A stretch of 39,077 nucleotides of DNA from Bacteroidota bacterium (GTDB taxonomy: Bacteria; Bacteroidota; Bacteroidia; Bacteroidales; FEN-979), in the NCBI GenBank assembly GCA_026391755.1, contig JAPLDN010000344.1, positions 1-39,077 on the forward strand, given 5' to 3'. A program made the position numbers and the translations under genes. Positions 1-4,839 of this stretch are shown here, piece by piece. The notes under the pieces are model-generated. The model worked only from the letters and a program-made list of their open reading frames with translations, ran no database searches and had not been told where the DNA came from. Each line of letters begins with the position of its first letter. The stretch's first letter is position 1.

Positions 1-348
1 TTTTACCAGGGCCTTGTCGATTCCTATCGGCTTATCTTCCCCGGCTTTTATAATCAGACGCTCCCTCTTGTTTGTTGCTAACCTGTGATCGTTGGTAAAC
101 CGGATCTTCCCTGAAGTGGCGAAGCTGCATTCCATACAGAATTCGCATTTCCCAAGGTCAAGGCTGAAAGGCCCTGAAGTGATAGCTCCCGTGGGGCAGA
201 CAATCTCAGCCGATTTTTCTTCAGCAGGCGTAATATCGCTGCTTATCACGGGCCGGCCGCGGAACCCTTCGGGAATAACCGCCTTGCGAAGGTCTTTCAC
301 GTATTGCCGTCCGTGCTGATGAAATATTTTGAAAATACTTAAAGCCAT
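1..348 (-). CDS. Partial N-terminus of ferredoxin-domain/NuoB-like (HycG/EhrS-type) small subunit of the hydrogenase-related complex
   Basis: Reverse-strand reading from ATG at 348: MALSIFKIFHQHGRQYVKDLRKAVIPEGFRGRPVISSDITPAEEKSAEIVCPTGAITSGPFSLDLGKCEFCMECSFATSGKIRF...; ferredoxin-like CPTGAI and CxxCxxC; follows the large subunit; runs off the window edge. Confidence 0.7.
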   Translation of the reverse strand, partial: MALSIFKIFHQHGRQYVKDLRKAVIPEGFRGRPVISSDITPAEEKSAEIVCPTGAITSGPFSLDLGKCEFCMECSFATSGKIRFTNDHRLATNKRERLIIKAGEDKPIGIDKALVK

Positions 349-351
349 TTT

Positions 352-1857
352 TTACAGGTCATGTCCGCAATACGATAAATTAAAACTCTTGTTACATAAG
401 GGGAAATCGGAGATTTCCTGGTTCCTTACAGCCAGCGCCAACGACATCCAGTTATGGAATGAAGGGTCTTTTACCTTGTAATGAATGATCTTCCCGTCCT
501 GGTCTGTGACTGCGGAATGCATTATCTCGCCCCTCCAGCCCTCGGCCAGCGACAAGGCAAAGCTTGAATGCTGAAGTTTGAATTCATATAAAGGTTGAGC
601 CGGATCCCTTTCAAAATCATTTATACTTAGAAGACCCCTGATCAGCTGAATTGATTTCTCAACTTCCTGCTTCCTGAGCATGGCCCTGGCCCAGACATCC
701 CCCTGGTGAAGGGTTCCGGGCTCATAATCAGAATCGGTAAAGGCCTGGAAGGGATGCGACCACCTGATATCACGTTTGACCCCGCTGCTTCTGGCAGCCA
801 TTCCAACAGCACCTATCATCCCTGCCTGGCGTGCATTGATTTTTCCTATACCTTCAAAACGACTGAGGACGCTGGGGTTTGTGAACATCTCATGCGTGAT
901 CTGCCCGAATCTTTTTTCAACCTCTTCCAGGTTTGAAAGCAGGATTTTAATAAAACCTCCGCTTAAAGGATAATGGCCTCCACCTGTCCGAACGAGGCCT
1001 TTCCCGAAACGGTTCCCGCACCACGACTGGGTTGTATTGATAACGATGGTGCGCAGGGCTTCATTCACAACCTGTCCGAACTGATAGGCAATATCGGTGC
1101 AAAGTGCTGCCGTGTCGCCAATGTGGACAGCGATCCGTTCAAGCTCGAGCGCAATAATGCGTTCGCTTGGCACGACTGCAGCAGGTGTTATTCCTGCAAG
1201 GATTTCCAACAGCTGGGCATGGGCGATTGAGTGACCCACTGCGGTATCGCCTGAAATGCTCTCAGCCAATACGGCACGCTGTATTCCCGAATGCTTTTGC
1301 AGGAATAGTGATTCTATTCCCCTGTGCTGGAAACCCAGCTGAATCTCAAGGTGCAGGACTTTCTCCCCATTGCAGCAGAAGCGAAAATACCCCGGTTCGA
1401 TGATCCCTGCGTGGATGGGGCCTACGCCCACTTCATGGATGCCTTCGCCTTCGATGGAGAAGAAGGGATATCGGATATCCGATATCTGATATCTGACATC
1501 TGACATCTGATATCGTACCGGTTTCATCCAGGGATGCCCTGTGAATTTCACTCCATATTGTTCACTGATCTCTCGTTCATACAGATGAAATGAAGGATGT
1601 GAGACAGTTAGAGAATCAAGCACAGGAATGGGAGAGGATTGCTGTTCATGTGAAAGCAGTACCAGGAAATGATCACTGTCGGATGCGATGCAGCAGAAGA
1701 ACCTGAGTGCTGCGCCAAGCGGTACCGCGTGATATGTAACGCAGTGGCATCCCTCATCCGCCATCAATAAATTTATGTTATCCATGAATTCAGGATAACC
1801 GAGGAGAGGGATATCGGCGAGAGGAACAATAAAGGGGTTTGTATTAAGTATCAGCAT
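352..1857 (-). CDS. Fused NuoC/NuoD-like large subunit of a group-4 hydrogenase-related (Ehr-type) complex, without NiFe cysteine ligands
   Basis: EGEGIHEVGVGPIHAGIIEPGYFRF, LEIQLGFQHRGIE, KVKDPSFHNWMSLALAVRNQEISDFPLCNKSFNLSY typical of the HycE/HyfG/NuoD family; operon context. Confidence 0.85.
   Translation of the reverse strand: MLILNTNPFIVPLADIPLLGYPEFMDNINLLMADEGCHCVTYHAVPLGAALRFFCCIASDSDHFLVLLSHEQQSSPIPVLDSLTVSHPSFHLYEREISEQYGVKFTGHPWMKPVRYQMSDVRYQISDIRYPFFSIEGEGIHEVGVGPIHAGIIEPGYFRFCCNGEKVLHLEIQLGFQHRGIESLFLQKHSGIQRAVLAESISGDTAVGHSIAHAQLLEILAGITPAAVVPSERIIALELERIAVHIGDTAALCTDIAYQFGQVVNEALRTIVINTTQSWCGNRFGKGLVRTGGGHYPLSGGFIKILLSNLEEVEKRFGQITHEMFTNPSVLSRFEGIGKINARQAGMIGAVGMAARSSGVKRDIRWSHPFQAFTDSDYEPGTLHQGDVWARAMLRKQEVEKSIQLIRGLLSINDFERDPAQPLYEFKLQHSSFALSLAEGWRGEIMHSAVTDQDGKIIHYKVKDPSFHNWMSLALAVRNQEISDFPLCNKSFNLSYCGHDL
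1466..1514. repeat. Heptanucleotide tandem array, 7 copies of NGAYATC (ggatatc ggatatc cgatatc tgatatc tgacatc tgacatc tgatatc), inside the large-subunit CDS
   Basis: Direct reading; encodes YQMSDVRYQISDIRY on the minus strand. Confidence 0.95.
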
Positions 1858-1973: not shown

Positions 1974-3413
1974 TCATTTCGGCAGGTTTTGAATAATATC
2001 ATTGATCAGATCCCTGAAAAAAGCCGGCTGGGAAAAACAGATAAAAATTACAAGGCCGAACAGCACAAATTGTGAAACTGTTTGCCAGGGATTTACCTTC
2101 TCATGAAGTTTGCCCGATGCAGTGCGTGGCTGTGAAAAGACAATATGTAAAACCCTTGTAAGCAGTGCATAAAGAACATAGCAAAGCAAAAGGGCGGCCA
2201 CGGCCAGGTACAGGTAATCCCCGTTTGCTACCATGGCTTTGAACAGCAGCAGTTCCGAAATAAACATCCCCGAAGGAGGGATGGCGGTTATACAAAGAAG
2301 TCCGAGCAAAAGGGCAGTTGCACCGGCAGGATAAAGATTCATGTAATTTCCCGATTCGTCAAGGTTGTAAGTACCCATGACTTTGTACGATTGCCCCATC
2401 TGGTAGAAAAGACCGGCTTTCGCAAAAGAGTGAAGAATGATATGCAGTATGGCTGCATAATATCCTATGCCGCCCATCCCAAGCGCAATAGCAACAATAC
2501 CCATATTTTCCAGGCTGGAGTAGGCCAGCATACGCTTGTTGTGCTTGGCTTTGAGCATGTAACCGGCTGAAATCAGGAGTGAGAGGAATCCTGAAAGAAG
2601 CAAGACATGGTTCATAAAAGGCAGGATGGGTGTAGCCGAAAACAGTGCGTAAATTCGGAAAATCGCAAGGAACCCAACATTCATGAGAGCAGTCGAAATA
2701 AAAGCGCTGATGGGCGGAGGAGCCACGGTATGTGCATCCACGGTCACAGTATGCATTGGAAAGAGTCCCATTTTAGTACTGTAACCCACGAGTACGAAAA
2801 CAAACGCGATCTTAAGATACAGAGGGTTGGCCATGCGGGCAATCTCAGTTATTGAAGAAAATGAAAGATGCAGCAGGCGGGCATCTCTCACTGTAAACCC
2901 CAGGAAAAGAATACCGATATATGCGAGGGCGATACCAATTGAACAAACAAAAACATATTTCCAGGTAGCTTCAAGGGCAATTGCTGTACGGTCATGGTAG
3001 ATAAGGGCAGCTACCGCAAGCGTCGTAGCTTCCACGAAGATCCAGACTGTCGTCATCCCGTTGGCGAGGTAAGCTCCCGTCATTGAAGCAATCAGGGCAA
3101 TCAGGGCCGCATGATAAATTGCATAAATTCTTGGCGGATCATTTTTTACATAAATGAATCCATGGTAAACTGTTGTAATACTTAATACAGAAAGCACCGA
3201 CTGCAGTAACAGTCCCAAGGTGTCGAATGTAAAATAATCAAGTATGGTCTCCCCCCTGTGTGTCCAGCAATAGATCGTAAACCCAATGTGAACAAGGGTA
3301 TAGAATGATGTAAGCGCCCGTGCCAGAGGTTTTGAATGGATAAGTCCAACCATCAATCCGATCACCAGGGAGATGGCGAAAAAGAGGATGAATATATTTG
3401 TAACGCTAATCAT
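1974..3413 (-). CDS. hyfF: HyfF/NuoN-like proton-translocating membrane subunit
   Basis: Proton_antipo_M-type protein (TKMGLFPMHTVTVDAHTVAPPPISAFISTALMNVG..., LHIILHSFAKAGLFYQMG); operon context. Confidence 0.8.
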   Translation of the reverse strand: MISVTNIFILFFAISLVIGLMVGLIHSKPLARALTSFYTLVHIGFTIYCWTHRGETILDYFTFDTLGLLLQSVLSVLSITTVYHGFIYVKNDPPRIYAIYHAALIALIASMTGAYLANGMTTVWIFVEATTLAVAALIYHDRTAIALEATWKYVFVCSIGIALAYIGILFLGFTVRDARLLHLSFSSITEIARMANPLYLKIAFVFVLVGYSTKMGLFPMHTVTVDAHTVAPPPISAFISTALMNVGFLAIFRIYALFSATPILPFMNHVLLLSGFLSLLISAGYMLKAKHNKRMLAYSSLENMGIVAIALGMGGIGYYAAILHIILHSFAKAGLFYQMGQSYKVMGTYNLDESGNYMNLYPAGATALLLGLLCITAIPPSGMFISELLLFKAMVANGDYLYLAVAALLLCYVLYALLTRVLHIVFSQPRTASGKLHEKVNPWQTVSQFVLFGLVIFICFSQPAFFRDLINDIIQNLPK

Positions 3414-3869
3414 CTTTCAAAATCGTTAAATCATCGGTCTGTTGCCTCAGGCGCATCACAAAGATCCCCAGTATGAGCAGGTAAATACGGCAAAGAATGA
3501 AACAATAAAGAACAGCAGGTTATAGGGGGTTGTATTCATTGAAAAGGAAACCACTATACTAAGCAACAGCCCCATGGTCACGAATAGCAGCGAATAGAAC
3601 GAGGGTAATGCTTTTTCGTGGACCCTTGCCACACCTGTCTTACGGATCACGGTAAATAAAAGGTAAGGTACCACGATCACTTTAAAGAGCAGGGTTTCAA
3701 TTGCAACAAAAAGTACCGTTGCCAGTGTGATCCTGTCAAGCTGCAAAAAAGATAAACCAAACAGCAGCAAGCCCTGCAGGCCAACAAGTCCTGCATATAT
3801 CCTGAACCTCTCGGTAACGCTGAGGTAGATCAGGCTGATCGCAAAGACGATGATGAGCATTGATGTCAT
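3406..3869 (-). CDS. hyfE: HyfE-like membrane subunit with an apparent 1-nt frameshift near 3475-3488 (in-frame ORF 3456..3869; C-terminus in the other frame to stop at 3406)
   Basis: ORF MTSMLIIVFAISLIYLSVTERFRIYAGLVG... between hyfC and hyfF. Shifted frame downstream reads LLILGIFVMRLRQQTDDLTILKDD*, with the stop overlapping the hyfF start (ATGATTAG). Confidence 0.65.
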
Positions 3870-3870
3870 G

Positions 3871-4839
3871 TCAGCGGATGAGGTTGCGGGTTAATAGTAA
3901 TACAAGGATAAAAGCGATCAGGGCGATGGAGCTCAGGGTCACGATGAACTGCGGATTTTTAGCCAGTTTTTTCCTTGCGCGGAAGGATTCCATGAGCCCG
4001 ATGGCAGCGGCGAATGCGGCCTGTACTAGCAGGAAGATAATACCATTCAGGAGGGTTGCCATCAGGTGAACCGTTAACGGTGAACCGTGAATGGCTGCAG
4101 TCACTAAAAACCAGTCATAGTTCACCGGCATAAAGAAATTGGCAATCAGTCCGCCGTATAATACGAACTTCAGGTTTGTACCTGTTTGTATGAAGGCAAG
4201 GTCGACCCCGCTGTAATCGAGGATCATCACTTCGTGGACCATGGTGAGTTCGAGATGAGTTTTAGGGTCATCGACAGGCATCCGGCTATTCTCGATCATT
4301 GCGATCTGCACCAGGAGGTAAATTGCAATGGCGCCTGCGATGAGGGAGAATTCACCCGCAAACTGGAAATGTGAAAAGATATCCTGCATTGAGAGATGGC
4401 CGGAAAGCAATGCCAGGGTGCCGAGCAGAATGAAAAATGCAGGTTCGGTAAGCATGGAATACAGGGCTTCGCGGTTGGCTCCCATCCCTTCGAAGCTGCT
4501 TCCGGTATCGAGTGCCCCGAGAATAAAAAGGAGTTTTCCCAGCGCGAGCAGGTATGCAAAAAGGATAAAGTCGCCTTCAAATCCAAGTACGGAAGACATG
4601 CCGGGGAAAGGCAGTAGCATCAGGGCACAGCAAATGGTAGCAAGGTAAACGGCAGGGGCCAGCCTGAAGATGAAACTGGTAGCGGTGCTAAATACGCTGC
4701 TTTTCCTGAACAGAAGGATAATGTTCTTCCAAGGCTGCAATATCCCCGGGCCTTTGCGGCCGCTGGCAATGCTTTTCACCCTGAGAATGATTCCCGGGAA
4801 AAAGATTGCAGATACTATAGCCAGCAGGGTTCCTGTCAT
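3871..4839 (-). CDS. hyfC: HyfC/NuoH-like membrane subunit
   Basis: NADH dehydrogenase subunit 1-like: FRLAPAVYLATICCALM, ENSRMPVDDPKTHLELTMVHEVMILDYSG. Confidence 0.85.
   Translation of the reverse strand: MTGTLLAIVSAIFFPGIILRVKSIASGRKGPGILQPWKNIILLFRKSSVFSTATSFIFRLAPAVYLATICCALMLLPFPGMSSVLGFEGDFILFAYLLALGKLLFILGALDTGSSFEGMGANREALYSMLTEPAFFILLGTLALLSGHLSMQDIFSHFQFAGEFSLIAGAIAIYLLVQIAMIENSRMPVDDPKTHLELTMVHEVMILDYSGVDLAFIQTGTNLKFVLYGGLIANFFMPVNYDWFLVTAAIHGSPLTVHLMATLLNGIIFLLVQAAFAAAIGLMESFRARKKLAKNPQFIVTLSSIALIAFILVLLLTRNLIR

Follow-up and report, generated by a model that had tools for sequence, protein, structure and literature searches.

An operon at the left end of the DNA analysed here almost certainly encodes a member of the Ehr (energy-converting-hydrogenase-related) complexes. 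All four nickel-binding cysteines of its large subunit are replaced, and in its relatives the ligands of the N2 cluster are gone from the small subunit as well, with the ion path of the membrane arm conserved. Judged from the sequences, it is an even call whether the complex forms a self-contained, ion-translocating Ehr subtype with a dismantled electron wire, which would work neither as a hydrogenase nor as an ordinary reductase of the ferredoxin:quinone or MBS type.

The window, i.e. the whole stretch of 39,077 bp, is one complete contig (labelled G000:C175) of a MAG of 435 contigs that is 87% complete. The operon, hyfB-hyfC-hyfE-hyfF-ehrL-[ferredoxin...], lies on the minus strand and occupies the left 6.9 kb. 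Its features were as follows.

1..348 (-): ferredoxin+NuoB fusion, N-terminal 116 aa only, cut at the contig end
352..1857 (-): ehrL-like large subunit (NuoC+NuoD / HycE-like fusion), 501 aa; from the ORF, Pfam, the HycE alignment and AF2
355..393 (-): former Ni-ligand motif L2, NKSFNLSYCGHDL, aa 489-501; from the ungapped HycE alignment
1228..1266 (-): former Ni-ligand motif L1, AESISGDTAVGHS, aa 198-210; from the ungapped HycE/MbhL alignment
1450..1530 (-): C/D linker of EhrL with an in-frame GATATC-type tandem repeat; low pLDDT at 117-128
1974..3413 (-): HyfF-like antiporter subunit, 479 aa; pump residues kept
3408..3869 (-): HyfE-like subunit, disrupted; ORF 3456-3869, 137 aa, against 206 aa in relatives
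3871..4839 (-): HyfC/HycD/NuoH-like membrane anchor, 322 aa
4836..6860 (-): HyfB-like antiporter subunit, 674 aa, the first gene of the operon

All four of the HyfB/C/E/F-like membrane subunits listed in an earlier note on this DNA were found, but the hyfE-like gene is broken. Compared with L034/L039, about 158 bp are missing from its interior and the reading frame is shifted, with the junction near 3480. The break reflects misassembly or a recent lesion, and the window's copy of the operon may therefore be misassembled or non-functional. Complete operons of the order hyfB(-hyfB2)-hyfC-hyfE-hyfF-ehrL-[253-aa subunit] were found in relatives across many genera.

The large subunit and its former nickel site

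The 501-aa ORF contains a Complex1_30kDa domain followed by a Complex1_49kDa domain (Pfam). Its AF2 model had a pLDDT of 89.6, with low confidence at residues 117-128, and the best PDB match was HycE from formate hydrogenlyase of E. coli (7z0s_E; TM 0.88/0.83).

Alignment in ungapped register placed LSDRVCGICGFAHS of EhrL against LAESISGDTAVGHS of HycE at L1, and DAPLIIGSLDPCYSCTDR against DFPLCNKSFNLSYCGHDL at L2. The earlier note had put SISGDTAVGHS at about residues 200-210, and this numbering was correct. It had also counted the L1 cysteine pair and the DPC cysteine as replaced. This was right as far as it went, but one cysteine short: all four Ni ligands are gone, being replaced by S202 and T205 in L1 and by S495 and G498 in L2. 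EhrL thus lacks the four-cysteine signature of group 4 [NiFe] hydrogenases (RxCGxC plus DPCxxC). The cysteine in its 'SYCG' corresponds to the S of DPCxSC, adjacent to the ligand position, and some relatives have S or A in its place.

The same non-cysteine pattern was kept in 111 related ORFs from Bacteroidota loci, among which, as among the 96 fusion sequences described below, several represent one species from two collections. This ruled out sequencing error. A local error whose correction would restore the CxxC motifs, named in the earlier note as a way to refute it, was therefore not borne out.

EhrL stops at the L2 motif and has no C-terminal tail. In NiFe large subunits, such a tail is cleaved by the hydrogenase maturation proteases. 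The quinone-site residues His38 and Tyr87 (Nqo4) were also absent, the EhrL loop reading GPIHAGIIEP and L1 reading ESISGDT.

Trees were built under LG+F+G4 with about 40 taxa, using partial MbhL and MbhJ sequences from printed alignments; Ehr was sampled from Bacteroidota, Pseudomonadota, Rhodococcus and Allomeiothermus only. In the large-subunit tree, the Ehr proteins split from HycE/HyfG, MbhL and NuoD with a UFBoot of 100, and the concatenated tree described below gave this split the same support. The comparison with these families had been proposed in the earlier note, and EhrL fell outside all of them.

A check for hyp maturation genes, suggested there as well, found five EhrL-positive genomes (G019, G020, G023, G041 and G054; 95-99% complete) without HypD and without a PF00374 hydrogenase. 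This indicated that NiFe maturation is not needed. HypD was absent from the source genome too, but as this genome is 87% complete and has a PF00374-type NiFe hydrogenase on contig C264, unrelated to the ehr operon, its own case carries no weight. The assignment to the Ehr type and not to the hydrogenases was upheld by the motif loss, the Ehr clade, the five genomes and the published Ehr definition.

In-frame simple tandem DNA repeats accumulate in the C/D linker of EhrL (about aa 111-135 in the window), which is short outside the genus. The GATATC-type repeat of the window was also present on contig C379:8-82 of the source genome. The linker of L037 has about six copies of MQDAGCG, and those of L034/L035 carry other inserts.

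The fused small subunit and the N2 cluster

In relatives, the last subunit of the operon joins a ferredoxin-like domain to a NuoB domain and is about 253 aa long. The NuoB-like subunit that the earlier note had assigned to the window is incomplete: ORF 1-348 (-) encodes 116 aa of the ferredoxin-like part and runs off the contig. Its NuoB half was not found elsewhere in the assembly, where only the two true complex I copies matched. Extension past the left window edge, as had been proposed, could thus be made only through the relatives, which supplied the remainder of the gene. Because the contig ends inside the fusion gene, the loss of N2 had been missed. An ordinary NuoB-like subunit had been assumed, but only the ferredoxin part lies in the window and the NuoB domain of the relatives has no N2 ligands.

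The fusion set consisted of 96 copies related to the window, 79 of which passed a filter for full length and distinctness. The ligand columns of the proximal [4Fe-4S] cluster, N2, were read against HycG, HyfI, MbhJ and the Variovorax fusion. In the N2-less clade, the first cysteine was replaced by D in 97/97, the third by D in 82/97, and the fourth by N in 92/97. Over the 96 copies, the first column had D in all, the second C in 56, A in 23 and other residues in the rest, the third D in 81 and A in 12, and the fourth N in 91. Most members conserve D/D/N itself, so the site may have acquired a different role and not merely lost the old one.

The state of N2 in the window had to be taken from six congeners, because the assembly does not contain the NuoB half of the window's fusion gene. 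These were 76-88% identical to the window in EhrL, and the closest was 95% identical in the shared ferredoxin part. Their N2 columns read D-A-A-N or D-T-A-N, with no cysteine in 6/6. The electron wire is, on these sequences, very probably cut in the window's genus.

When N2-less (n=97) and N2-containing (n=14) small subunits were compared, only C137D, A203T, C204D and C234N discriminated the two classes. Three of these positions are N2 ligands, and A203T adjoins the ligand position 204. At the level of sequence, the loss of N2 is a surgical change.

The ferredoxin domain, on the other hand, kept four cysteines (CPxxAI plus CxxCxxC) in 96/96 copies, which read CPTGAI and CEFCMEC in the window. 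We take these to be the ligands of the N6b-type [4Fe-4S] cluster in complex-I nomenclature. Their invariance suggested that a redox role persists. The ligands of the second, outer ferredoxin-domain cluster were missing in most N2-less members. The AF2 model of the fusion had a pLDDT of 89.6, which dropped to 58 in the former CxxC loop, and its best structural match was MbhJ (6cfw_J).

In the concatenated tree of large and small subunits, the N2-less Bacteroidota formed one clade (99), with the N2-containing L150 as its sister (100). The basal N2-less members, L065 and L102, retained both ferredoxin clusters. This indicated that N2 was lost once in the Bacteroidota clade, and before the outer ferredoxin cluster. 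L148, L152 and L155 lost the outer cluster independently and retained N2. A simple stepwise loss from three clusters to two and to one was therefore contradicted by the tree. The distant Ehr of Allomeiothermus silvanus represented a separate loss of N2, with T-D-E-S in the ligand columns. N2 was retained in the Ehr of Variovorax, Rhodococcus, Methylocalor, Burkholderia, Rhizobium and Bradyrhizobium.

The Allomeiothermus plasmid pMESIL01 (L124 10254-11126) encodes its own ferredoxin+NuoB fusion without N2 ligands.

The loss of N2 in Ehr appears undescribed, although priority is not certain. No description of an N2-less Ehr was found in the open-access literature, a scope outside which lies the paper of Marreiros et al. 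2013, reportedly the one that defined Ehr. In the portions available of PMC6349859, PMC10284858, PMC7894505, PMC10432482 and PMC7304191, Ehr is described from several phyla as a complex without Ni/Fe ligands and with its substrate unassigned, and loss of the N2 ligands is not mentioned.

Membrane arm, occurrence and related complexes

Between congeners, dN/dS was 0.03-0.22 for hyfB, hyfC, hyfF, ehrL and the fusion gene, as expected under purifying selection. The antiporter subunits (Mrp/Nuo-type) and NuoH-like anchor by which Ehr is recognized are encoded within the operon. More than 95% conservation was found for the ion-path residues E153, K232, K263, K309, H352 and K360 of HyfB, for E128, K214, K293, H328, K332 and E387 of HyfF, and for E132 and other charged ion-path residues of HyfC. 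Most of the conserved ion-path residues were identical in E. coli HyfB/HyfF/HycD or in Nuo subunits. The pump half and the scaffold of the large subunit are thus intact, and the redox half is stripped.

EhrL was present in 30/61 near-relative genomes. In an even sample of Bacteroidota, the fusion was detected at E<=1e-60 in 14/395 genomes. Ten of these 14 were covered in a first reading, and nine had N2 and one did not. MnhE was present in 1/30 EhrL-positive and 5/31 EhrL-negative genomes, counts too small for inferring replacement of Mrp. The source genome also carries two different canonical complex I (Nuo) gene sets, on contigs C313 and C214.

Beside the N2-less operons, no conserved dehydrogenase or maturation gene was found, and no neighbour was conserved beyond the genus. 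A gene for an excisionase-type HTH with PTS EIIA-2 heads 12/13 N2-containing Bacteroidota Ehr operons (L145-L149, L151-L157); this regulator gene was not found beside the N2-less operons. SulP (sulfate/bicarbonate-type) transporters adjoin the N2-containing operons of L147, L149, L154, L156 and L157, and of L150. Their adjacency in two separate lineages is a possible hint at inorganic anion handling.

Like described Ehr, including that of Geobacter, the complex combines a HyfB/C/E/F-like arm with a Ni-less NuoCD-like large subunit and, as seen in the relatives, a NuoB-like small subunit (PMC6349859, PMC10284858 and PMC7894505). Unlike these, the Bacteroidota subtype has a ferredoxin-fused small subunit, no N2 ligands and usually one [4Fe-4S] site. 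It shares gene order, the fusion and the Ni-less signature with the plasmid Ehr of Variovorax sp. PBL-E5 (L122) and with the N2-containing Bacteroidota Ehr (L150, L149, L145 and others), which differ in keeping the four N2 cysteines and mostly both ferredoxin clusters.

The MBS (membrane-bound sulfane sulfur reductase) of Pyrococcus furiosus, among Ni-less relatives the one studied best, is likewise a member of the complex-I superfamily that has lost the NiFe site and has no Nqo4 H38/Y87. MBS catalyses at a proximal [4Fe-4S] cluster held by three cysteines and keeps two of the four Ni cysteines, whereas the N2-less clade has neither the proximal cluster ligands nor the Ni cysteines (MBS facts from PMC7684303). 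Ligands of this catalytic three-cysteine cluster were absent from the relatives.

The closest resemblance in structure (7z0s_E, 6cfw_J) and operon logic was to formate hydrogenlyase and hydrogenase-4 (HycE/HycG, HyfG/HyfI) and to Mbh. These differ from the present complex by their Ni ligands, N2 ligands, cleavable C-terminal tail and required maturation genes. The proximal [4Fe-4S] cluster expected of group 4 [NiFe] hydrogenases had no counterpart in the relatives and the six congeners (the window's copy being cut), and the N2 ligands expected of complex I (Nuo) were lost in the relatives.

Two different Ehr-like operons, one with the ferredoxin fusion, lie side by side on Variovorax plasmid 3 (L122), near universal-stress and spermidine-synthase-like genes. 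YoaK and spermidine synthase neighbours recur at the Ehr loci of Burkholderia and Cupriavidus.

Possible modes of action

The distance from the remaining cluster to the old cavity was put at about 20-25 Å, as estimated from known complex-I cluster spacing. For 24 to 20 Å and zero driving force, the tunnelling estimate was about 0.04-10 per second. By this estimate, the rate would lie below the need of the pump, except at the short end. Electron supply to the former NiFe/quinone cavity would then be too slow to be of use, and the known H2, quinone or polysulfide chemistry is not expected. The loss of the N2 ligands also argues against ordinary ferredoxin/quinone activity at the N2 site.

The two antiporter-like subunits may still move H+/Na+ through the NuoH-like anchor. 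The peripheral arm would serve as a conformational module acting on the antiporter subunits, and its gate would be either its single cluster, through redox state or binding, or else a ligand occupying the former cavity. Such a complex would resemble an antiporter with redox or ligand gating more than a pump driven by redox chemistry. On the residues retained and lost, a gated or antiporter-like role that is not electron-driven seems the most likely one, and it is put forward tentatively. More doubtful still is its fuller form, an ion transporter from which NiFe and then N2 (at least twice) would have been removed with the pump kept, and in which the Asp/Asp/Asn site or a ligand-gated arm would control H+/Na+. 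By inference, we ranked the gated role first, followed by an electron-driven one that uses a new exit and then by conversion to a metal site.

The coupling of electron transfer at N2 to ion pumps far away from it is the central problem in complex I research. A clade with the pump arms, anchor and coupling scaffold but without the active site and N2 is a natural comparison for this coupling, the more so as the small subunits of the sister lineages are distinguished by little more than the cluster ligands. Ion movement by the N2-less complex would mean that coupling does not require N2. Were the complex to gate ions, it would be a missing kind within the superfamily.

The first alternative is that the ferredoxin-domain cluster exchanges electrons directly with a soluble partner or with a substrate bound between the ferredoxin and NuoB domains, and that the resulting conformational change drives pumping. 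This would agree with the invariance of the four cysteines of the N6b-like cluster, with both ferredoxin clusters in the basal L065 and L102, and with the intact membrane arm. However, the outer ferredoxin cluster, the usual entry point, is also lost in many members, no conserved electron-donor gene lies nearby, and the scaffold is shared with the N2-containing lineages, the ligands alone being different. We consider it rather unlikely.

The N2 site may instead have become a metal site without FeS, or a catalytic one (Asp, Asp, Asn and often Cys), e.g. for CO2 hydration or some other non-redox reaction coupled to ion flow. The replacement is uniform and not a random decay (D 97/97, D 82/97, N 92/97), and SulP adjoins some N2-containing Bacteroidota Ehr operons in the two lineages. 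In the window's genus, on the other hand, the third position is A and the second is A or T, Allomeiothermus reads T/D/E/S, and SulP was not seen with confidence beside N2-less operons. Such a conversion is improbable on this evidence.

Asp-ligated iron-sulfur clusters occur in other proteins, and D-C-D-N was found in 56/96 members, so an atypical [4Fe-4S] or [3Fe-4S] cluster might still sit at N2 with Asp/Cys/Asp/Asn ligands. The window's congeners, however, all lack the cysteine and have a single Asp there, and the AF2 confidence in the former CxxC loop is 58. This makes the proposal highly improbable.

A decaying relic without function would account for the disrupted hyfE of the window's contig and for the patchy occurrence (30/61 relatives; 14/395 phylum genomes at the strict threshold). 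It is slightly less credible still, and largely refuted by the signs of selection: a dN/dS of 0.03-0.22 for each of the genes tested, operons that are complete in many genera, and large sets of invariant residues.

The fold and operon resemble Hyc/Hyf, but the reading as a genuine group-4 NiFe hydrogenase whose motifs were garbled by sequencing errors was refuted by the conserved non-cysteine motifs of the 111 ORFs, the tree position outside the hydrogenases and the missing N2 ligands. The complex probably serves something other than H2 production, and annotation as formate hydrogenlyase or hydrogenase-4 would wrongly predict H2 metabolism in many Bacteroidota.
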